A DNA stretch of 64,000 nt, from positions 128,296 through 192,295 of the forward strand of contig JALJOM010000003.1 of NCBI GenBank assembly GCA_024304885.1. The letters run 5' to 3'. Within the stretch, counting starts at the first letter, position 1. Each line of letters begins with the position of its first letter. This stretch comes from Beijerinckiaceae bacterium. GTDB lineage: Bacteria; Pseudomonadota; Alphaproteobacteria; Rhizobiales; Beijerinckiaceae. Positions 9,798 through 63,452 of the stretch are shown here, one piece after another. Made by a program: the position numbers and the translations under genes. Below the pieces are notes generated by a model. It ran no database searches. It worked only from the letters and a program-made list of their open reading frames with translations, and was not told where the DNA came from.

Positions 9798-10202
9798 ATG
9801 CTCGGTCGGCTCGCTCATGTCGCCATCGCGGTCGCCGACCTCGACGCGGCGAGCGAGGTCTATCGCTCCCGGCTCGGCGCCACGGTCAGCGCGCCCCGGG
9901 CCTTGCCGGAGCATGGCGTCCGCGTCGTGCTCGTCGACCTCCCCAACACGCGGATCGAGCTCATGGCGCCGCTCGGCGAGGACTCGCCGATCGCGAAATT
10001 CGTCGCGGCGCATCCGCGCGGGGCGGTCCATCATCTTTGCTTCGAGGTCGACGACATCCTGGCTGCTCGGCAAAGGGTGACCGAGGCGGGCGGCCATGTC
10101 CTGGGCGGAGGCTGTCCGATGCCGGGGGCGCATGGCAAGAGCGTGCTGTTCCTCGATCCCAGGGATTGCGCCGGCGTCTTGATCGAGCTGGAAGAGGCTT
10201 GA
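9798..10202 (+). CDS. mce: Methylmalonyl-CoA epimerase
   Basis: A 134-residue member of the vicinal-oxygen-chelate (glyoxalase) fold. Candidate metal ligands are His7 in RLAHVAIAV, the His pair in AVHHLCFEVDD and the Glu in GVLIELEE. The sequence NTRIELMAPLGEDSPIAKF is typical of methylmalonyl-CoA epimerase, which interconverts the (2S) and (2R) forms so that the B12-dependent mutase can make succinyl-CoA from propionyl-CoA. The ATG follows GGGAGGCAGG, a good ribosome site. The mutase is not in this window. The cobalamin uptake locus 8 kb away serves the same pathway, though nothing shows they are coregulated. Confidence 0.88.
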   Translation: MLGRLAHVAIAVADLDAASEVYRSRLGATVSAPRALPEHGVRVVLVDLPNTRIELMAPLGEDSPIAKFVAAHPRGAVHHLCFEVDDILAARQRVTEAGGHVLGGGCPMPGAHGKSVLFLDPRDCAGVLIELEEA

Positions 10203-10226
10203 CAAAGCGTTTGTTCTTATTATGTT
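10199..10226 (+). promoter_or_regulatory. Candidate sigma-70-type promoter
   Basis: A perfect TTGACA at 10199-10204, overlapping the mce stop codon, is followed after 16 bases by TATGTT (10221-10226). It could serve the small gene at 10456 with a leader of about 220 bases. The leader is locally AT-rich around 10375-10440, unlike the rest of the window. Confidence 0.35.
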
Positions 10227-10455
10227 CGACTATGTTCCGTGTTAGTTCGTATGCACGGGGGCCGGACCGAAGAGTGTCAACTTAAGCTGTTCGCATCGGT
10301 TCGCAAGCTGTTCCTTTATCCGGGAAGGGCCGACCCCGATGTGCCGCCTCGACACCTCCGGGTCGAACGATCACAAAATATCTCGTGATAGTTGTATATA
10401 TCGTGCTATGGTTGCATATTGGTCGAACATAGCAGCATATACGCGAAGGTCTCCG

Positions 10456-10689
10456 ATGGTGTCTGGAGGGAAGCGGGAGCGCTCGAGCCCGCAGGGCGAG
10501 ATCGCGGCGGATGCCGAACGCCTCATCGCTCGATTTGCGGAGCGTGCTTATTTCGAGGCCCGGGACCGGGTGGCAGGGCGATGCATCGACGGGACGAAGT
10601 CCCGCCGTTACTGGACTCGGGTCAAGCTGGAGATCGCCGCGCGCCAAGGACGCACCATCGGCCTCGCCGGAACCGACGCCTGGGCGTGA
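10456..10689 (+). CDS. Small basic protein of unknown function
   Basis: A 77-residue basic protein starting MVSGGKRERSSPQGEI, with a helical core ERLIARFAERAYFEARDRVAGR and a C-terminal segment RYWTRVKLEIAARQGR. ATG at 10456 was chosen because GAAGG lies 6 bases upstream; the frame extends back to 10339, but that part is AT-rich and has no ribosome site. No Cys pairs, signal peptide or known motif are present. The many Arg residues would allow nucleic-acid contact, but that is speculation. The preceding 250-base gap (10203-10455) contains only the candidate promoter. Confidence 0.5.
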   Translation: MVSGGKRERSSPQGEIAADAERLIARFAERAYFEARDRVAGRCIDGTKSRRYWTRVKLEIAARQGRTIGLAGTDAWA

Positions 10690-10738
10690 GCCGTCGCGCC
10701 TGAGTTCCATATGACCGCGTGAGGCGATTGCCATACGA

Positions 10739-10893
10739 CTAGAGCGGGATGAGGAAAAGTTTGCAGCGGTTTTCCGGCGCAGTCACGTTTACGCAGCTTG
10801 CGTAAACTTATCTGCCTATCCCGCTCTAAGCTTTTGGACTCGATCACGTTTCATGACTTTGGATCGATTCGATCCAAAGTCGTCGTGATCTAG
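10739..10893. repeat. Composite palindromic repeat, B plus C modules
   Basis: This is the inverted counterpart of the 6085-6199 unit. A B module with ends AGAGCGGGAT and ATCCCGCTCT contains an internal GTTTACGCA..TGCGTAAAC hairpin. It is followed by a C module GATCACGTTTCATGACTTTG...CAAAGTCGTCGTGATC. The closing CTAG supplies the TAG stop of the leftward permease gene. It fills the gap between the tails of two convergent genes. Confidence 0.85.
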
Positions 10894-13502
10894 AGCTCGC
10901 GCAGGAAGCGTGCCGGCTTGCGACCGAGGATGTGCCACGTTCCGGCGAGGCCGAGGACGATCGTGAGGCCGAGAGCGGCCGTCGCCGCGCCGAGCGCGGG
11001 AACGAGGACGAAGACGAAGTCGAGCTTCATGACGTGCTCGACGACCGCGAAGGCTGCGAGGGCTCCGGCCGTGAGGCCGAAGATCGACGTCATCAGGCCG
11101 ATGAGGCCGAACTCGTAGACGAAGGTGCCGGCAATGGCCCGTCGGGTCGCCCCGAGCGTCTTCAAGACGACGGCATCGTGGGTCCGGGCCTGCTGGCCGG
11201 AGGCGAGCGCGCCGCCGAGAACGAGGATCGCGGCGAGGATCGCGACCGCCGCGACACATTCGACCGCGGCGCTGACCTGGCCCATCGTCGCCGCGACCGA
11301 GTCGAGCGCGTCCTTCATGCGGATGGTGGTCACCGCGGGAAAGGCCTGTGCCGTCTCGCGAAGGAGAGCCAGCTCGCGGGGGGTGTCGAGCGCTCCCGGC
11401 AAGGTCAAGGTCGCGATCTCGCCGAACGGCGCGCCAGCGAACGTGCTCGGCGAGAAGACGAGGACGAAGTTGATCCCGAGATTGCGCCAGTTCACCTTGC
11501 GTAAGTTCGCGATCGTCGCACTGATCTCGCGCCCGAGGACATTGACGGTGATCGTGTCGCCCTGCGCGAGGCCGAGGCCTTCGGCGATCTCGGCGTCGAG
11601 CGAGACGAGCGGCGGGCCGTCGTAATCTTTCGGCCACCACGAGCCGGCGACGAGCGTGGAGCCGTCGGGCACGGTCGCGGAAAAGGAGATCCCGCGATCG
11701 CCGCGCAGGACCCAGGCGGCGTTCTCGGTCGGCACCGCCGCGTCGGCGCGCAAGCCGTTCAGCTCGACGATCCGGCCGCGAAGCATCGGGACGTGCTCGA
11801 TGCGGCCCTCCGGCGCCCGCGCCCTCAGGAACTCGGCAAAGGCCTCGGACGAGGCCTTCTGGACATCGATGAAGTAGAGGCTCGGTCTCTCGCCGGGCAA
11901 TCCGTCGCGCAGCTCCTTGCGCAAGTCCGCGTCGATCAGCGTGAGCGCGACGACGAGCGTGAGGCCCAGCCCGAGCGACACCGCGATCGACGGCGTGAGC
12001 GCGCCCGGCCGGTGGATGCTCACGATCGCGAGCCTGAGCGGGACATTGCGCGGATGCGGGAGCCTCCGCGCGCCCGCCATGATCGCCCAGCCGAGCGCGC
12101 GCAGCAGCACGAAGGCGGCGAGCGTCGCGGCGACATAGATCGAGGTCAGGAAGCGGTCCGCCGAGAGCGCCAAGGTCACCGCCAGGAGCACGGTGCTCGA
12201 GGCCGCGATGAGGGCAATGTAGCGCTTGCGAGGCCTCGTCCTCGTCGGCGCGATGCTCTCGCGGAAGAGGGCCTGGATCGGCACGTCGTGCACGCGGCCG
12301 AGGGGCCAGATCGAGAAGGTGAAGGCGGTCAGAAGACCATAGAGGATCCCCGCTCCGATCGCGCTCGGGTGGAGCGCCGCGGTGATCGGAAACGGGATGT
12401 CCGAGCCGAGGGTCGCGGCGACGAGGAAGGGCAAGGTGACACCGGCCGCGGCACCCGCGACGACGGCGATCGCCGCGACGAGCATGACCTGAGTGAGAAC
12501 GAGGGCGAACACCGTGGCGCCGGAGGCACCGAGCGTCTTGAGGACCGCGATCGACACGCGCTTGCGCTCGACGAAGCCGGCGATCGCATTGGCGACGCCG
12601 ACACCCCCGATGATCAAGGACGTCGCGCCGACGAGCTCGAGGAAGGTCGTGAGGCGCTCGAGGTTGCGCGACAGCTGCGGGGCAATGGTGCTGCGGGTCC
12701 GAATTCCCCAGCCGGCCCGAGGCGCGGCGTCGCGGAGAAGCTCCGCGACGCGAGCGACCTCGGCGTCGCTCGCGGGCGCGCCGGCTCGCTCGAGCGCGAC
12801 ACGGTATTGCCAGCGCACGAGCGCGCCGGGCTCGACGATGCCGGCGGACGCGAGACCTGCGCGCGACATCAGCACGCGGGCGCCGAGCCCAATGCCGGCC
12901 GCGAGCCGATCCGGCTCGGCCGCGAGACGTGCGCGAAGCTCGAAGGTCGTGTCGCCGATCTCGACGAGGTCGCCCAACGCCAAGCCGAGCTTTGCGATCA
13001 GCGCCGCATCGGCCGCGAGTCCGAAGCGCCCGTCGCGAAGCTCGAGTGCTGCAGTGAGCGCCAGAGGCGGATCGAGCCCGATTTGCCCGACCAGGGGATA
13101 AAGGGCATCGACAGCCTTGATTTCCACGAGCGCCGCCTCGCCGTTGGCGCGTCGGGCCATGGCACGCACGATCGCGACCTCGGCGACGCGCCCTTGGCGC
13201 TCGAGCAGCTCGCGCTCCTCCGCGCCGATCTCACGCTGCGCCACGTCCGCGGAAATATCTCCCCCGAGGATCACGCGACCTTCGCCGGCGAGGCCATCGG
13301 CGATCGACAAGGACAGCGAGCCGATCCCCGTGATCGCCGCGACGCCGAGGGCGATCGCGGCCACGAAGATCCGGAAACCCGCGAGGCCGCCGCGAAGCTC
13401 GCGCAAGGCGATCGGCAAGAGGCGCGGCCGCTGCCGGCCGGCATCGACGGAGTCGTCGAAACGGGAGGGTCGCGCCCGGGGGCGCAATGGACAGACCGTC
13501 AT
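10890..13502 (-). CDS. FtsX-type ABC permease of the YbbP class
   Basis: An 870-residue membrane protein built as two FtsX/MacB permease domains: an N-terminal helix (residues 38-62), a large periplasmic loop, three helices around 285-400, two central helices near 430-480, another single helix near 510, a second periplasmic loop and a final three-helix block ending at residue 860. This duplicated layout and the sequence AIALREL..FRIFVAAIALGVAAI match YbbP-like predicted permeases, which normally pair with the LolD-type ATPase YbbA. No ATPase gene lies next to it here, so the partner must be elsewhere or lost. Lipoprotein or lysophospholipid-ester handling is known for relatives but not shown here. 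Its TAG stop is formed by the flanking repeat. Confidence 0.87.
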   Translation of the reverse strand: MTVCPLRPRARPSRFDDSVDAGRQRPRLLPIALRELRGGLAGFRIFVAAIALGVAAITGIGSLSLSIADGLAGEGRVILGGDISADVAQREIGAEERELLERQGRVAEVAIVRAMARRANGEAALVEIKAVDALYPLVGQIGLDPPLALTAALELRDGRFGLAADAALIAKLGLALGDLVEIGDTTFELRARLAAEPDRLAAGIGLGARVLMSRAGLASAGIVEPGALVRWQYRVALERAGAPASDAEVARVAELLRDAAPRAGWGIRTRSTIAPQLSRNLERLTTFLELVGATSLIIGGVGVANAIAGFVERKRVSIAVLKTLGASGATVFALVLTQVMLVAAIAVVAGAAAGVTLPFLVAATLGSDIPFPITAALHPSAIGAGILYGLLTAFTFSIWPLGRVHDVPIQALFRESIAPTRTRPRKRYIALIAASSTVLLAVTLALSADRFLTSIYVAATLAAFVLLRALGWAIMAGARRLPHPRNVPLRLAIVSIHRPGALTPSIAVSLGLGLTLVVALTLIDADLRKELRDGLPGERPSLYFIDVQKASSEAFAEFLRARAPEGRIEHVPMLRGRIVELNGLRADAAVPTENAAWVLRGDRGISFSATVPDGSTLVAGSWWPKDYDGPPLVSLDAEIAEGLGLAQGDTITVNVLGREISATIANLRKVNWRNLGINFVLVFSPSTFAGAPFGEIATLTLPGALDTPRELALLRETAQAFPAVTTIRMKDALDSVAATMGQVSAAVECVAAVAILAAILVLGGALASGQQARTHDAVVLKTLGATRRAIAGTFVYEFGLIGLMTSIFGLTAGALAAFAVVEHVMKLDFVFVLVPALGAATAALGLTIVLGLAGTWHILGRKPARFLREL

Positions 13503-15024: not shown

Positions 15025-17385
15025 TTGACCGATCAATTCACGCTCGCCGACCTCGACGCCCCCGCGCCGCGTCCGGGCGGCATCGCCGCGCGTGCCCGAG
15101 CCTCGGCCGCCGCAAGGCCCTATCTCCAAGGGCTCAATGCCGAGCAACGCGCCGCCGTCGAGGCGACGGACGGCCCTCTCCTGGTGCTCGCCGGCGCCGG
15201 CACCGGCAAGACCCGCGTGCTCACGACGAGGCTCGCCCATCTTCTCGCCGAGGGCCGCGCCCGTGCCCACGAGATTCTCGCCGTGACCTTCACCAACAAG
15301 GCCGCGCGCGAGATGAAGGAGCGCGTCGCGCTTCTCGCCGGGCCGGTCGCCGAAGGCATGCCCTGGCTCGGCACCTTCCATGCGATCTCGACCAAGATCC
15401 TGCGTCGCCATGCCGAGCTCGTGGGGCTGAAGTCGAGCTTCACCATCCTCGATACCGACGACCAGATCCGGCTCCTGAAGCAGGTCCTGCAGGCCGAGAA
15501 CATCGACGACAAGCGCTGGCCCGCACGTGCGCTCGCCTTCCAGATCGATGCCTGGAAGAACCGCGGTCAGGACCCCGCCCATGTGCCGGCGGGCGAGGCG
15601 GCGAGCTTCGCGGGCGGCAAAGGCGCGCGGCTCTATGCGCTCTACCAGGAGCGGCTGAAGACCCTCAACGCCGCCGATTTCGGCGATCTTCTCCTCGAAG
15701 GCTTGCGGCTCCTGCGCGAGAACCCGGACGTCCTGAAGCTCTACCAGGACCGGTTCCGCACCATGCTGGTGGACGAGTACCAGGACACCAACTCGGTGCA
15801 ATATCTGTGGCTGCGCATCCTCGCGCAGGGACGCAACAACATCTGTTGCGTCGGCGACGACGACCAGTCGATCTACGGCTGGCGCGGCGCCGAGGTCGAC
15901 AACATCCTGCGCTTCGAGCGGGATTTTCCGGGCGCGCGAGTCATCCGGCTCGAGCGCAACTATCGCTCGACCGGCCATATCCTCGCGACCGCGGCGGGCC
16001 TCATCGCCCATAACCAAGGCCGGCTCGGCAAGACGCTTTTCACCGACGGCGAGGCCGGCGTGAAGCCGACCGTCACCGGCGTGTGGGATTCGGAGGAGGA
16101 GGCCCGTGTCATCGGCGAGGAGATCGAGGAGCTGCAACGCCGGCAGCACGAGCTCGACGAGATAGCGATCCTCGTGCGGGCCTCGTTCCAGATGCGCGAG
16201 CTCGAGGAGCGCTTCATCACGCTCGCCCTTCCCTACAAGGTGATCGGCGGCCCGCGCTTCTACGAGCGGGCGGAAATCCGCGATGCGCTCGCCTATTTGC
16301 GCTGCGTCGCCCAGCCGGCCGACGATCTCGCTTTCGAGCGCATCTTCAACTTGCCGAAGCGCGGTCTCGGCGACGCGACATTGCAGCTCCTGCACGACCA
16401 TGCGCGGCGGGCGAAGATGCCGCTCACGCAGGCGGCGCGCATAATGGTCGAGACGGAAGAGCTGAAGCCCAAGCAACGCCAGACGCTACGTGGTCTTCTC
16501 GACGATCTCGAGCGCTGGGCGAGCCTGATCGACGTGAAGCCTCAGGGCGAGCTGACGGAGACGATCCTCGAGGAGTCGGGCTATACCGACATGTGGCGCA
16601 AGGACCGGACCGCGGAAGCCACGGGCCGGCTCGAGAACCTGAAGGAGCTCGTCCGCTCCATGGAGGAATTCCCGGATCTCGCTTCCTTCCTGGAGCATGT
16701 CTCGCTCGTGATGGACGCCGAGACCAAGGACGCGGGACCGCGCGTCTCGATCATGACGCTCCATGCCGCGAAGGGCCTCGAGTTCGAGACGGTTTTCCTG
16801 CCGGGCTGGGAGGAGGGGCTGTTTCCGCACCAGCGTTCGATCGACGACAACGGCAGGGCAGGGCTCGAGGAGGAGCGCCGCCTCGCCTATGTGGGGCTCA
16901 CGCGCGCCAAGCGCCGCGCGAAAATTTCCTTTGCGACCAACCGCCGAATCCACGGGCTGTGGCAAACCACCGTGCCCTCGCGCTTTCTCGACGAATTGCC
17001 GGCGAGCCATGTCGAGGTGGTGGAGGCCGCGACGGGCGCGGCCTATGGCGGCTATGCGCAATCGCGCTTCGCCAATATGGATTCCTACGGTTCGTCCTAC
17101 ACGACACCCGGCTGGCAGCGCGCCAAAAGCCGGATGGACGAGAGCCGTCAGGGCGCATCGACCGAGAGCTCGAGGACGAAGCGCGCGCGCGGCGGGCCGC
17201 GGGAGATCGAGGGCGAGCTCGTGGCGAGCTCCAGCGCCGAGTCGGGGTTCGCGTCGGGGACCCGAGTCTTCCACATCAAGTTCGGTCCCGGCACCGTGGC
17301 GGCTGTGGACGGCAACAAGCTGACGGTGGATTTCGACAAGGCCGGCCGCAAGATGGTGCTTTCGAGCTTCGTGCAGGCGGGGTAA
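15025..17385 (+). CDS. uvrD: UvrD/PcrA-type ATP-dependent DNA helicase
   Basis: A superfamily 1A 3'-5' helicase that unwinds DNA in nucleotide-excision and mismatch repair and removes RecA filaments. Motifs occur in order: the Q-motif region LNAEQRAAVEATDG, Walker A LAGAGTGKTRVL, motif Ia FTNKAAREMKERV, motif II DEYQDTN, motif III GDDDQSIYGWRGA, motif IV ERNYRSTGHIL, motif V TLHAAKGLEFETVFLPGWEEG and motif VI EERRLAYVGLTRAKRR. A PcrA-like C-terminal domain (VFHIKFGPGTVAAVDGNKLTVDF) follows. TTG at 15025 was chosen because it gives MTDQFTLADLDAPAPRPGG with GGAG 10 bases upstream; the frame stays open to an ATG at 14863. About 786 residues. Confidence 0.96.
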   Translation: MTDQFTLADLDAPAPRPGGIAARARASAAARPYLQGLNAEQRAAVEATDGPLLVLAGAGTGKTRVLTTRLAHLLAEGRARAHEILAVTFTNKAAREMKERVALLAGPVAEGMPWLGTFHAISTKILRRHAELVGLKSSFTILDTDDQIRLLKQVLQAENIDDKRWPARALAFQIDAWKNRGQDPAHVPAGEAASFAGGKGARLYALYQERLKTLNAADFGDLLLEGLRLLRENPDVLKLYQDRFRTMLVDEYQDTNSVQYLWLRILAQGRNNICCVGDDDQSIYGWRGAEVDNILRFERDFPGARVIRLERNYRSTGHILATAAGLIAHNQGRLGKTLFTDGEAGVKPTVTGVWDSEEEARVIGEEIEELQRRQHELDEIAILVRASFQMRELEERFITLALPYKVIGGPRFYERAEIRDALAYLRCVAQPADDLAFERIFNLPKRGLGDATLQLLHDHARRAKMPLTQAARIMVETEELKPKQRQTLRGLLDDLERWASLIDVKPQGELTETILEESGYTDMWRKDRTAEATGRLENLKELVRSMEEFPDLASFLEHVSLVMDAETKDAGPRVSIMTLHAAKGLEFETVFLPGWEEGLFPHQRSIDDNGRAGLEEERRLAYVGLTRAKRRAKISFATNRRIHGLWQTTVPSRFLDELPASHVEVVEAATGAAYGGYAQSRFANMDSYGSSYTTPGWQRAKSRMDESRQGASTESSRTKRARGGPREIEGELVASSSAESGFASGTRVFHIKFGPGTVAAVDGNKLTVDFDKAGRKMVLSSFVQAG

Positions 17386-17418
17386 CGCATGGTCTTGGCT
17401 TAACATCGGATTTCCAGC

Positions 17419-17568
17419 ATGAATGAATGTCCAATTTGTAGCGAGGCGCTCAATAGTGAGGTCGAACGGACTGTAGAAGGTCCAACTGCTACATTACCAA
17501 CCGCTAAAGCGAAATTGACTGCGACGATCCGAAATACATTCTTTGCGGAAGCGAAGATGGCGGATTGA
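17419..17568 (+). CDS. Possible 49-residue ORF of atypical composition
   Basis: A short frame starting MNECPICSEALNSEVERTVE and ending FFAEAKMAD. It has one CxxC pair (CPIC) and codon use much richer in A and T than its neighbours (17400-17560 is visibly less GC-rich), which suggests transferred or non-coding DNA. There is no clear ribosome site. It may be a fragment of a zinc-ribbon protein or chance. The rest of the 17386-17770 gap holds a TTGACA at 17739-17744 that could be the -35 box for the riboswitch transcript. Confidence 0.25.
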   Translation: MNECPICSEALNSEVERTVEGPTATLPTAKAKLTATIRNTFFAEAKMAD

Positions 17569-59438: not shown

Positions 59439-59915
59439 CTACGCGCGCGAAGCATCTGTCAGCTCGGCAATGCGATCGTCCGCGCGGCGGAGCCGCCGAC
59501 AGAGCTCACGGTTGATGTTCAGCATCACCATAACATAAGCGTGGATGTCTGCCTTGTAGTATGCGTAGAGGTTTCGGGCCGTGAGCTCGTACAGCACGGT
59601 TGGACTTTCGGCGACGACAGTGGCCGATCGGTTCTGCATCTCGATGAGCGTCATTTCGCCGAAAAAATCGCCCGGCCCGAGGCTCGCCATGCGAATCACG
59701 CGTCCGGAATTCCCGAGCTTGCTCACCGCGAGCGCTCCGGAGTGAACAATATACATCGAGCGCCCCAGCTCTCCTTCCGACACGACCATAGCGCCGACGT
59801 CGAACCGGCGCTCGACCAGCATCGAGATCAGGAGATCGAGACTCGAATCCGGGAGACCACCGAAGAAAGGTGTGGAGATCAAGAATGCTCCGAGATCGGG
59901 CGTGCCGACAGCCAT
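59439..59915 (-). CDS. Stand-alone cyclic-nucleotide-binding domain protein
   Basis: A 158-residue protein consisting of one cNMP-binding domain: RRFDVGAMVVSEGELGRSMYIVHSGALAV, then LGPGDFFGEMTLIEMQNRSATVVAESPTVLYEL, which is the phosphate-binding cassette with FGEM and R-S-A-T. A short C-terminal helical tail (NINRELCRRLRRADDRIAELTDASRA) follows. No DNA-binding domain is present, so it is not a Crp-type regulator by itself and probably acts by protein contact. It is transcribed leftward and lies next to the decayed CRISPR-Cas region. Confidence 0.87.
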   Translation of the reverse strand: MAVGTPDLGAFLISTPFFGGLPDSSLDLLISMLVERRFDVGAMVVSEGELGRSMYIVHSGALAVSKLGNSGRVIRMASLGPGDFFGEMTLIEMQNRSATVVAESPTVLYELTARNLYAYYKADIHAYVMVMLNINRELCRRLRRADDRIAELTDASRA

Positions 59916-60276
59916 GAGACCAATTCAACTCCACTCTCGAGCCGTGACGGCATCTTATCACCTTCGGCCGGCGGCGCGACCCGCTCTCCACGGGTCGCTC
60001 GCCTATCCCGAAGTCTGGTTCGCCTCGGCGGCGGTCGACCCTCGAGCGGATCTCGTGAATGGAAAATATGCGCGAAGTCCCGACTTTGGCTCGATCGAAC
60101 GGCGGAGCCGGCGTCTCGCGCACAGGCGACCTCGCGCGCGACGCAGTGCCCGGTTTCGTCCTGGCGGCCAGTGCTTTGGCGCGCCGCCGTAGGCGATGAT
60201 GAGAGCTACGTTTTCGCCATAGCACTATGAATTCGCCAACCCCGCGACGGTCGGCCCCTCGAAGCCCAAGCGCGGT
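59916..60276. other. Gene-free stretch beside cas1 remnant
   Basis: About 360 bases between the cyclic-nucleotide-binding gene and the truncated cas1. In an intact type I-E operon the rest of cas1, cas2 and the CRISPR array would lie in this direction. I found no repeat-spacer pattern and no cas2-like frame here, only short unsupported frames. Confidence 0.5.
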
Positions 60277-60423
60277 GACCGCGGGGAGATCGCTGCCCCC
60301 GGCAGTGACGAACCGGAGGCAGCCGTCTTCCACATCGAGGCGGCCGCGCTCCAGCCAGATCAATCCATGCCTGTCGGCGTGAGGAATGCGCGCCTTTTCC
60401 AGCCCGAGGCGTCCCGAGAGCAT
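60277..60423 (-). pseudogene. cas1: cas1 (type I-E) N-terminal fragment
   Basis: The first 49 codons read MLSGRLGLEKARIPHADRHG, then LIWLERGRLDVEDGCLRFV and TAGG, which is the N-terminal beta-hairpin domain of type I-E Cas1 (the usual start is MLKGRLGLExARIPHADRHGLLWL). After about residue 49 the resemblance ends, and the frame runs on into unrelated sequence. Cas1e is normally about 300 residues, so most of the integrase, including the catalytic Glu/His/Asp residues, is lost. It follows the cas6e remnant with an inserted repeat between them, in the gene order of an intact type I-E operon. Confidence 0.72.
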
Positions 60424-60432
60424 GACGTTCTC

Positions 60433-60550
60433 CTAGAGCGGGACGAGGAAAAGTGGACAGCGGTCTTCCGCCCGCATCCCGCTCTACATTCTTGTTTTGT
60501 CGCAATTTCGCGACGCGAACCGGTGTCCGTTTCGCTGGAAATTGCTCTAG
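60433..60550. repeat. Composite repeat B plus inverted A inside cas remnants
   Basis: A B module (AGAGCGGGACGAGGAAAAGT...CCGCATCCCGCTCT) is followed by an A module in inverse orientation (ATTCTTGTTTTGTCGCAATT, CGCGACGCGAACCGGTGT, TTCGCTGGAAATTGCTCTAG). It separates the cas6e fragment from the cas1 fragment, and its closing CTAG supplies the cas6e TAG stop on the minus strand. Confidence 0.88.
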
Positions 60551-60918
60551 CGCGCGGGGCGGAGCAGCAGCATTCCATAGCCATAGGCGGAATGCCGACC
60601 GACCCCGGCCGCCAGCCGGGCCGCGAATTTGTCGCCGTCGAGAACCGTCAGCTCGCCGTGCCAGGTCACATCGGGGCCTTCGTGGGCTCGCCCGCCCCGC
60701 AACACGTTGCGGCGCTCGAAATCGACCATGCGCGCCTCCTCCAATCGCGCCGCCTCTCTCAATCTTGCGCTCAGCCATTGGCGATAGACTTCTTCCCTCT
60801 CAATGTTGCCGTCGGTCGGCGAGCCGTCCGGAAATCGGCGTAGGGCTTCCACGAGAAAAGCATCGACTTCCGCACCGTTCGGGAAGACGCCAGCGGGCTT
60901 CAGCAGACGCTTCGACGA
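60547..60918 (-). pseudogene. cas6e: cas6e (casE) C-terminal fragment
   Basis: An open frame of about 123 codons with no start codon of its own at the upstream end, joined directly to the interrupted cas3. It reads PAGVFPNGAEVDAFLVEALR, REEVYRQWLSARLREAARLE and VDFERRNVLRGG, and ends with ELTVLDGDKFAARLAAGVGR and HSAYGYGMLLLRPAR. The final glycine-rich loop G-x-G-x-x-x-A-x-G-x-G-x-L-x-L is the C-terminal hallmark of Cas6e, the CRISPR-RNA processing nuclease; about the last half of the normal ~210 residues is present. The assignment rests on this motif and on its position between cas3 and cas1. Confidence 0.62.
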
Positions 60919-62041
60919 TATCTAGGCTTTGCTCGAGCGTTTGCGTGCCGATGACGATGACGTCATGGGGTGATCTTTTTTCCTTTTGCGGCGAAAGTGC
61001 CGCCTCGACGGCTTCGTCGAGAAGCTTGCGGTCTTCCGGCGCGAAGCGGCTGTGGATGGCGGCAGCGCGCGTGGGCAGCGCGAAATAGAGCGAATCGACG
61101 CGCCGGCCCTCGAAGAGGCGAGCGAACCGCCAAAGAGCTGCTTCCGTCTTTCCGGAGCCTGTTTCGGCCTCGAGAACGACAATGCGCTCGTCGAGTGAAT
61201 ATTCCGCAGCCTGTTGTTGTTGTGGACGAGGCTTTTCGAGTCCGGTCAGAACAGGAAAGGTGGCACGGCCGCTTGCGGCGATTTCGAGCGCGGTAGTGTC
61301 CAGGCCAATATCCGACACCGCGCGACGAGCCTTCTCACGCGCTTGGATGATATAGTCGGGATCGAGCACCTCGACAAAGTCGAAGATGCGCTGGTCCGAT
61401 CCGATCCAGTCGGCGAGCGAGACCAAGCCGCAGAAGTAATGCTGAAAATCTTCCGTCGCAGGCAGAGGCTCCTCTACTGGAGCGAAAGCGGCCGGGAACC
61501 AGCGGCGCATCATTGCGCCCATCTCGGCGGTTGCCGCGAAAGGGTCATAGCCACCGACGCGATACCAAAGGTTTTCGGCGGCGTAATTGATTTTCAGCGG
61601 ACGCCCGTGATGGGAGAGGGACGCGTAGAGCAGATTTGGGTCGACACCCCATTCCCGAAGGTCGTGGAGGCAGAGGCTAGCCGCAATTTTTGCCGGGCCA
61701 TCATGCTCGAAGATCAAGGTGCCTTCGACGACATGTCCGTGGACACTACCTTTCCAGAGGCCTTGCGGCCATCCCTTGGCCTGGAAGCCCGGATGTAGTT
61801 TGCCGGCGTCATGCAAGAAGGTCAGAACGCCGAGGCGGCCGATGAATGTCTGCGAAAGCCGAGCTTCGGCGGACCGCTCGAGGCGTTCCCGAATGGCCGG
61901 TAGAGAGACGAGCGCCTCGAAGCAAGCAGCTACGTCCGCCGTGTGATGAACGAGTCGGTGACTGCGGCCTTCACGAGACGTTCCCCACGCAACCGGGGAT
62001 TGCACACTGGCTGGCAATTGATCCGCTTCTATGGTGCACAC
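60917..62041 (-). pseudogene. cas3: cas3 with internal deletion (HD nuclease-helicase)
   Basis: The N-terminal HD nuclease domain is well preserved: LVHHTADVAACFEALV, TFLHDAGKLHPGFQAKGWPQ, GHVVEGTLIF and SLSHHGRPL carry the expected His/Asp ligands. The helicase part begins normally with Walker A VVLEAETGSGKTEAALWRFA and YFALPTRAAAIHSR. It then jumps directly to FAPEDRKLLDEAVEAAL and VIVIGTQTLEQSLDI (motif V), so motif II (DExH) and all of the intervening region are missing. After LEQSLDI the reading frame leaves homology and the cas6e fragment follows. Normal Cas3 is about 850-950 residues; here about 375 remain. The likely start is GTG at 62041 or one slightly downstream. Confidence 0.82.
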
Positions 62042-62313
62042 AAATCACTTTGATCACTATGCAACCGGGCAATGAGAGTATCGAGTCTCCGCTGGCGACG
62101 GCAGCGCCATCGACACTACGTGACGCAGTACCGGGAAAGCGCGCTTTGGCGCAGGACAGACGACCGGAGCCGGGCCTTCAAGCTTTCTTTCGGCACTATT
62201 GGCAGTCGAACCCAAGCTCCCTTTCTTGGATTGCCACGCGTGCCCACCGGCTGAATTGGCGCGTGGCGGCGCGGCACGGCTACATTATCAAGCGATATGA
62301 CCGCGGTCCGGTG

Positions 62314-62433
62314 TCATTCCGACCCGGCCTTCAACTTATCGAGATATTCCGCCCATTGTTCCATCATCTTCCGCCTTTCCGCGAGATGCGCTGTCCGATT
62401 GTAAGCGCGTCCATTCAGATCGCGTACGGCGAG
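62314..62433 (-). pseudogene. Tyrosine integrase C-terminal fragment
   Basis: The last 39 codons before a TGA read VRDLNGRAYNRTAHLAERRK and MMEQWAEYLDKLKAGSE. The pattern AYxRxxHxxERxxMMxxWAxYLD is what I recall as the C-terminal tail of P4-type site-specific integrases in alphaproteobacteria, directly after the catalytic Tyr region. Nothing upstream in the frame extends the match (GRCALPRRHRCLVALSQS is not integrase-like), so this is a stump. It lies about 270 bases upstream of the cas3 remnant. The 62042-62313 interval between them holds no supported gene. Confidence 0.5.
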
Positions 62434-62532
62434 GCTAGGGTCTAGACTCGATTGGCTCAAAGCCACTAGGCAACGGTGGCGACGAGGCAGAGCGCAGCGG
62501 CCTCTCATCGGGGCAACAGAAAGGAGCGATAT

Positions 62533-63224
62533 ATGTCAGCCTACGACCTCCATGGCGCTGCCTTGCTCGACTGCTTTCGCGGCGAGACCTCGGCAATGCT
62601 GATCTGCCATCAGGACGGCGGGCGCGACGATGTGCCGGCCGCCTTCTGGCTGAGGGAGACGATCGACCCGCTCGAAGCGCTTGCTCTCGATCTGTGTTGT
62701 GGGCGCGTACTCGATGTCGGCGCCGGCGCTGGTCTTCATGCTCTCGAATTGCAGCGTCGGGGGATCGAGGTCACGGCGATCGACATCGCGCCGGAATGCG
62801 TCATGATCATGCGAGAGCGGGGCGTGCGTAGCGCGGAATTGGCCGACCTCTACGAGTTCGGTGGCGGCGGTTTCGACACGATCATCTGTCTCTGCAACGG
62901 CTTGGACAAGGTCGGCCGGCTTGCCGACCTGCCGAGATTTCTGGGGCGCATTCGCGAACTGCTCGCGCCAGGCGGCCAGCTCATCGCGGACTCGTTCGAC
63001 CTGCGCGTCGGCGCTGACGCGGCCCGCCTTGCCGAGCTCGCTCGAAAGGAGACCACCGGGCGCTACTTCGGCGAGACGGATACAAGGGCCGCTGCGGGAC
63101 TCCGTTCTCGGTCCTCCAGATCGACTACGAAACCCTGGCGCAAATTGCAGAACGCAATGGCTGGCGGTGCGAACTGGTGGATGGCGAGGGCGGCCATTAT
63201 CTCGTTCGCGCTCGACCGGCATGA
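62533..63224 (+). pseudogene. SAM-dependent methyltransferase with frameshift
   Basis: ATG at 62533 follows AAGGAG by 6 bases. The first 180 codons encode a class I methyltransferase: GRVLDVGAGAGLHALELQRR (motif I), VTAIDIAPECVMIMRERG, FDTIICLCNGLDKVGRLADL and LLAPGGQLIADSFDLR. Near 63080 the frame breaks. The sequence expected next, YKGRCGTPFSVLQIDYETLA and QIAERNGWRCELVDGEGGHY, then LVRARPA and TGA at 63222-63224, is intact in another frame. A single missing base, or two extra ones, would explain this. It may be a real decay event or a sequencing error. Confidence 0.75.
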
Positions 63225-63452
63225 CAGCTGCCGCCAAGCAATCGGTCTCATGCCAATTCCCCGTGAGCATGGCTCGGGTGGGGATTGCGGGAGCGGCTTG
63301 AATTCGATTCCTGATGGCGATGGGGGGAGATTCGCCATGCCGGTTCCGCTTCGCGCCGATTTCGTCGTGACGCAAGGCGAGAGCCGAGGCGTCGACGATC
63401 TGGACCAGGAGAAGCTCGGCGTGCTCATCAGCCCGAGATAGGGCTCGAGCCC
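63225..63452. other. Unassigned stretch after the methyltransferase
   Basis: A frame continuing from the shifted methyltransferase ends at 63441, and a short ATG frame from 63337 codes for MPVPLRADFVVTQGESRGVD and so on; neither has convincing start signals. No repeat, terminator or known element was recognised. Confidence 0.35.

Follow-up and report, generated by a model that had tools for sequence, protein, structure and literature searches.

A locus on the minus strand of the window (the whole 64-kb stretch of DNA that was analysed) is confirmed as the remains of a type I-E CRISPR-Cas operon. Three pieces are left: a cas3 relic, a cas6e reduced to its 3' half and a cas1e cut off after codon 48 (Table 1). 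Very probably, these derive from a redundant and possibly mobile-element-associated I-E operon that was inactivated by a few deletions, recently by comparison with its divergence from relatives. Among the papers listed in literature searches, we recognised no description of this locus.

Table 1. Features of the relic operon and its immediate surroundings (window coordinates)
Feature	Position	Strand	Basis
First 48 codons of cas1e	60280..60423	-	PADLOC Cas1e 3.6e-20
Palindromic dispersed repeat, CTAG-flanked (by eye), just upstream of the cas1 start	60433..60550		Own-genome search
3' part of cas6e with stop codon	60547..60912	-	Pfam 8.4e-16; identity to L068
Open frame of the cas3 relic, 413 aa from a GTG at 62041	60800..62041	-	ORF list, Pfam, PADLOC, alignment
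Junction 2: gap of about 5.05-5.35 kb, running from cas3 motif V into mid-cas6e	60905..60917		Coordinates of L006, L068, L069, L070
cas3 block up to helicase motif V (TQTLEQSLDI)	60917..61054	-	Identity to relatives
Junction 1: about 744-756 nt deleted in frame, as measured on L068, L070, L006, L005	61053..61055		Collinear alignment
Helicase start: ETGSGKTE, PTRAAA	61058..61234	-	Pfam, alignment
Complete HD nuclease domain; HH, HD, GH, HH, D motif residues all present	61382..61978	-	Pfam Cas3_HD; invariant alignment columns
Tyrosine integrase C-terminal remnant, just upstream of cas3, same strand	62314..62430	-	Identity to L045 integrase

The cas3 frame scores best with PADLOC Cas3e out of 26 families (7.5e-62). 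Its HD domain is intact, as the first-pass annotation had claimed: Pfam Cas3_HD matches residues 22-220 (E = 1.2e-28), and the motif residues, whose roles in the domain we assume, are conserved in the alignments. In the helicase start, we take ETGSGKTE to be Walker A and PTRAAA to be motif Ia. The following block is 62-74% identical to its counterparts in L005, L006, L068, L069 and L070 over 46-60 residues. With the Cas3 of Stappia (L006, 862 residues) as query, the relic covers residues 11-329 and 581-629, and about 251 central residues and the C-terminus are missing; the helicase core with its DEAD-like box has gone with residues 330-580. Homology to Cas3 stops at residue 375 of the relic frame, which then reads out of frame across cas6e DNA for its final 38 residues, up to the stop at 60800. 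Among solved structures, Cas3 4q2c (E = 3e-11) is the sole chain with a sequence match. A word resembling a CRISPR repeat at the 5' end of cas3 (61980-62005) was rejected as a chance match: one match was found against 0.48 expected in shuffles, 39 of 100 shuffles of the window have such a site, and the relatives are coding there.

The Cas6e piece corresponds to positions 132-223 of the 223 in the Pfam profile, that is, to the C-terminal part of the protein, and is 70% identical to L068 over 121 residues. The Cas1e piece matches PADLOC positions 1-47 of 288 and is 93% identical to L068 over 46 residues, with cas1 homology ending at about 60280. A truncated cas1e start is thus present as annotated before, but it is 48 codons long, not 49. 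By the family models, Cas6e and Cas1e stand in I-E order, collinear with L006, L068, L069 and L070. Model searches for Cas3, Cas6e and Cas1e all gave matches, and together with the collinear blocks in the operons of relatives they bear out the type I-E origin and the gene order that had been proposed.

Alignment to the type I-E operons of relatives placed the deletion endpoints, relative to homologues of at most 62% Cas3 identity, a same-species copy being unavailable. Six-frame tblastn without composition correction returned many spurious matches, and we used only those that a further comparison confirmed. In a Kiloniellales MAG (L005), whose contig ends inside cas3 and is informative for this gene alone, window positions 62005-61055 correspond to 10001-10957 and positions 61054-60917 to 11714-11845. 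In Stappia, cas6e and cas1 (window 60912-60280) lie at 16954-17508, and the three same-family operons L068, L069 and L070 show the identical three-block collinearity. Junction 1, at which about 3 nt can be assigned to either side, removed some 250 cas3 codons in frame. In Stappia, the stretch corresponding to the gap at junction 2 contains a cas8e that scores below the curated cut-off, then cas7 and cas5; cas6e, cas1 and cas2 come next. Neither cas8e, cse2, cas7 nor cas5 is found at the relic locus, and there is no space for them at the join (60905-60917). We infer the loss of cse2 from the usual gene order, because this gene was not recognised in L006 in the frame tried. The alignments, with the family models, uphold the earlier view that genes were lost between cas3 and cas6e, that two deletions touch cas3 and that cas1 is truncated. 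The direct fusion of cas3 to cas6e described in the first-pass annotation stands as to its position, at about 60905-60917, but cas6e lies in a different reading frame and therefore no protein fusion results.

A dispersed repeat lies between the cas6e and cas1 pieces and had gone unmentioned before. The distance from the cas6e stop to the cas1 start is 123 nt in the relic versus 3-12 nt in L068, L070 and L006, and the repeat is absent between these genes in all three. With 60425-60570 as query, at least 62 matches were found in the same genome, the locus included (40 of the 442 first-look candidates were scored), and segments of the repeat also match in relatives of the genus. As single-stranded DNA, 60432-60555 folds better than each of 200 shuffles (z = -3.3).

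The relic cannot run CRISPR immunity, because it is without the Cascade genes, an ATP-driven Cas3, complete Cas6e and Cas1, and any repeat of its own class that could be found in the genome; a full Cas1 is absent from the locus, where the reading stops after the 48 codons. A second type I-E system stands in the same genome, 1.87 Mb away (C3:2057506-2067802, within L015, G000:C3:2053000-2070500). It is of the same subtype as the relic but differs in having 8 of 8 I-E genes recognised, an array (22 repeats GTGTTCCCCGCACACGCGGGGATGAACCG, the last ones varied), another repeat and distant proteins, its Cas3 being 28-33% identical to the relic and 34% identical to the Stappia Cas3. Genome-wide searches for the relic's clade covered Cas3, Cas7, Cas1 and repeats. 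For the missing Cas3 parts, the genome gave no other match than the distinct Cas3 of the second system, which also holds the only Cas7 match and the only Cas1 by PF01867 (C3:2065194-2065805). The repeat of the clade, GGTTCCCCC...GGGGATAGGCCC, is carried in arrays by L006, L068 and L070 and has 0 matches in this genome at up to 3 mismatches. Judged from these comparisons, the relic is taken to be a separate acquisition and not a copy of the second system, because that system is distant (Cas3), has another repeat, and the clade repeat was not found. At the gathering threshold, Rfam reports nothing in the second-system locus (L015) or in the 14 kb around the relic (L016).

The region just upstream of cas3 carries the tail of a tyrosine integrase gene. 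The stretch 62288-62430 is 81% identical in DNA, over 144 nt, to the end of a gene that encodes a 402-aa integrase in another genome of the genus (G004, L045:1518-2726), and a further 23-nt exact match to this locus lies downstream of the tail (window 62184-62206). Arm, central and catalytic domains were found in the L045 integrase, of which the remnant keeps the C-terminal tail only. Searched alone, the tail gave no Pfam match; it is 65% identical over 37 residues to the best phage integrase among 94 phage records. Adjacency is the one link between the integrase and the operon, which was possibly associated with a mobile element. No tRNA that could serve as integration site was found in the 14 kb around the locus. 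An empty site within the genus was considered and set aside. On the left flank, a cNMP-binding gene (59439-59915) has 87-88% DNA matches in two genomes (G014 and G002) that end at 60017, and the right-flank leader-peptidase gene (Pfam Peptidase_A24) has only weak matches, at 33-35% identity, in three other genomes; because of these two results the left boundary is placed only between 60018 and 60280. At 62530-63226 there is a methyltransferase gene (Pfam Methyltransf_25) with an apparent frameshift near 63077 and, as judged by eye, a plausible C-terminal continuation in another frame.

The first-pass annotation read the lesions as prolonged decay. Our analysis does not support this: the relic has no excess of changes at codon positions 1 and 2 versus relatives, in a test that is not tight, and no stop codon or frameshift across the three pieces (525 codons). 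In comparison with L068 and L006, lineage-unique changes at positions 1/2/3 number 58/36/106 for the relic and 44/36/108 for L068 (p = 0.46); when L070 is used, the counts are 58/33/103 for the relic versus 42/45/92 for L070 (p = 0.11). The totals are 200 versus 188 for L068 and 194 versus 179 for L070. With L005 and L006, over 309 codons, the relic has 34/28/77 such changes versus 25/20/60 in L005. A five-row comparison on fewer sites (relic 36/21/45 versus 47/34/55 for L005, L068 and L070 pooled, p = 0.71) is a weak test, because the relatives alone do not depart significantly from 1:1:1 (p = 0.08). As a point against our preferred reading, unique amino acids in the first cas3 block of the five rows number 17 for the relic, 8 for L005, 10 for L068, 6 for L070 and 19 for L006, the counts of L068 and L070 being lowered because these two are close to each other. 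For the share of neutral changes in the relic, the comparison with L005 gives a median of 7%, with about 48% as the upper bound. The third-position share is 0.55 (0.53 with L070) in the cas6e and cas1 pieces versus 0.52 (0.53) in the cas3 part. Since the cas6e and cas1 pieces are unable to work and show it too, this share is a memory of past coding and hence says nothing for present function of the HD piece. Overall, the collapse looks recent relative to the divergence from relatives, because the frames are open and the relic is like its relatives in number of changes and codon-position bias, even in the pieces that cannot work.

Starting from the observed identity and collinearity of the pieces, the missing parts, the open frames, the codon signature and the complete second system, we suggest the following history. 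The lineage would have acquired a further operon of type I-E, lying next to the tail of an integrase gene. The operon may then have turned redundant or costly and been inactivated through a few deletions: one within cas3, one from cas3 motif V to cas6e, and one taking cas1 from codon 49 onward together with whatever followed. The order and cause of these deletions, the mobile-element origin and redundancy as the reason for the loss are conjectural elements of this scheme. The relic has the look of ordinary gene loss. That CRISPR loci can undergo large deletions at little or no fitness cost in vitro is documented (PMC3784566).

Long decay by many small events would agree with the several separate lesions (two deletions, a truncation and a repeat insertion) and with the apparent frameshift in the adjoining methyltransferase gene. 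We nevertheless consider it improbable, given the uninterrupted frames and a codon-position pattern and total change like those of relatives; the estimate is not a tight one, since neutral changes could make up as much as about half of those in the relic. Still less credit goes to an assembly error that joined distant parts of an intact operon. Three junctions fall within 1.8 kb, and a word of 12 nt at junction 2 (60910-60921) has counterparts of 83-92% identity at 61342, 61723 and 63390, probably by chance. However, the locus is internal to a 2.85-Mb contig, and no long repeat lies at junctions 1 and 2 among the largest 20 of 33 direct and 25 of 40 inverted repeat families. Moreover, the Cas3, Cas7, Cas1 and repeats of the clade are nowhere else in a genome that is 99.94% complete; that the missing Cas3, Cas7 and Cas1 parts have counterparts only in the distinct intact system speaks against a misjoin. 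Equally far-fetched is CRISPR self-targeting, in which the intact I-E system would have made the deletions through its Cas3. A complete I-E system with 22 repeats is at hand in the genome, and self-targeting can give large deletions, also joined at microhomologies (PMC6990116). However, the array spacers (20 between-repeat stretches, one with two spacers, compared with the 64-kb window) share no word longer than 15 nt with it.

The truncated Cas3 might instead be a kept gene with a new role, either as a free HD nuclease or as a partner of the intact I-E system. Such a gene would be expected to retain its HD motif residues, as this one does; the frame is open over 413 codons, junction 1 is in frame and the third-position share of the cas3 part is 0.52. 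In a predicted model (4-row alignment, mean pLDDT 52), the HD core is the best-predicted part, blocks of about 30-80 and 170-240 being mostly at pLDDT 75-93. However, the cas6e and cas1 pieces, unable to work, have an equal share (0.55); the frame ends in 38 residues of out-of-frame cas6e, and pLDDT is below 50 over residues 270-413; and the K of the WGK/WAK start shared by six aligned relatives is T in the relic. No ribosome-binding site was seen by eye, and no sigma-70-like match was found, the latter being weak evidence. Among the matches listed in the surveys of 99 and 397 genomes (2 candidates per genome in the latter), no second genome has the two-block pattern. Retention of the gene thus appears very unlikely, and its expression as a free HD nuclease serving the cell or the complete I-E system, e.g. 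in priming or DNA turnover, would be a shade less likely again. If true, a CRISPR effector that lost its motor to a deletion would have become a stand-alone nuclease. A two-block cas3 was found on none of the best 20 of 69 plasmids, and peptide patterns revealed no relative in viral contigs. A Bosea plasmid, considered as a case of the same truncation, was rejected: it covers 86% of the query in one piece, but its cas3 is full length (2598 nt).

With inactivation of a redundant operon by a few deletions as the preferred reading, the locus offers a clean snapshot of a multi-gene CRISPR operon vanishing: few deletions, leftover pieces without scars, and one complete system of the same subtype kept. 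An internal control is built in: the cas6e and cas1 pieces show that an open frame with codon bias is no evidence of a working gene. The relic frame is also an annotation trap, as it would be called a cas3.

Relatives of the operon are scattered. The relic Cas3 as query has a match in 5 of 99 genomes; with the full Stappia Cas3, 29 of the 397 genomes of the family give one (both counts include the genome of the relic; 2 candidates per genome were scored in the latter). Among the family matches there are short or broken cas3 rows, e.g. in G136, G412, G129, G052, G004 and the second locus of G234, and the weak rows, with identities of 24-32%, may represent other helicases. Such a scattered distribution, in which broken copies are frequent, fits a system that is mobile and often lost. 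Further cas3 frames that are split or fragmentary, from this genus or family, were seen at L049 (G003), L050 (G052) and L071 (G129). The operons of Stappia sp. TSB10P1A (L006), G193 (L068) and G124 (L070) are like the relic in their order cas3 ... cas6e-cas1, with identities of 54-62% in Cas3, 56-70% in Cas6e and 81-95% in the Cas1 N-terminus. Unlike the relic, they have full-length cas3 frames (862, 845 and 869 aa) and arrays, whereas the approximately 6 kb that separate cas3 from cas6e are missing from the relic, as is most of cas1, and it has no array. MJ0384 is a separate Cas3 HD nuclease, with the HD domain on its own chain. Compared with such nucleases, that of the relic would arise by truncation and would carry a broken helicase and an out-of-frame tail. 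In Zhang and Ye 2017 (PMC5294841), isolated cas loci without a companion array are regarded as remnants or as partners of remote arrays; these loci have at least three cas genes by definition, whereas the three of the relic are all partial.
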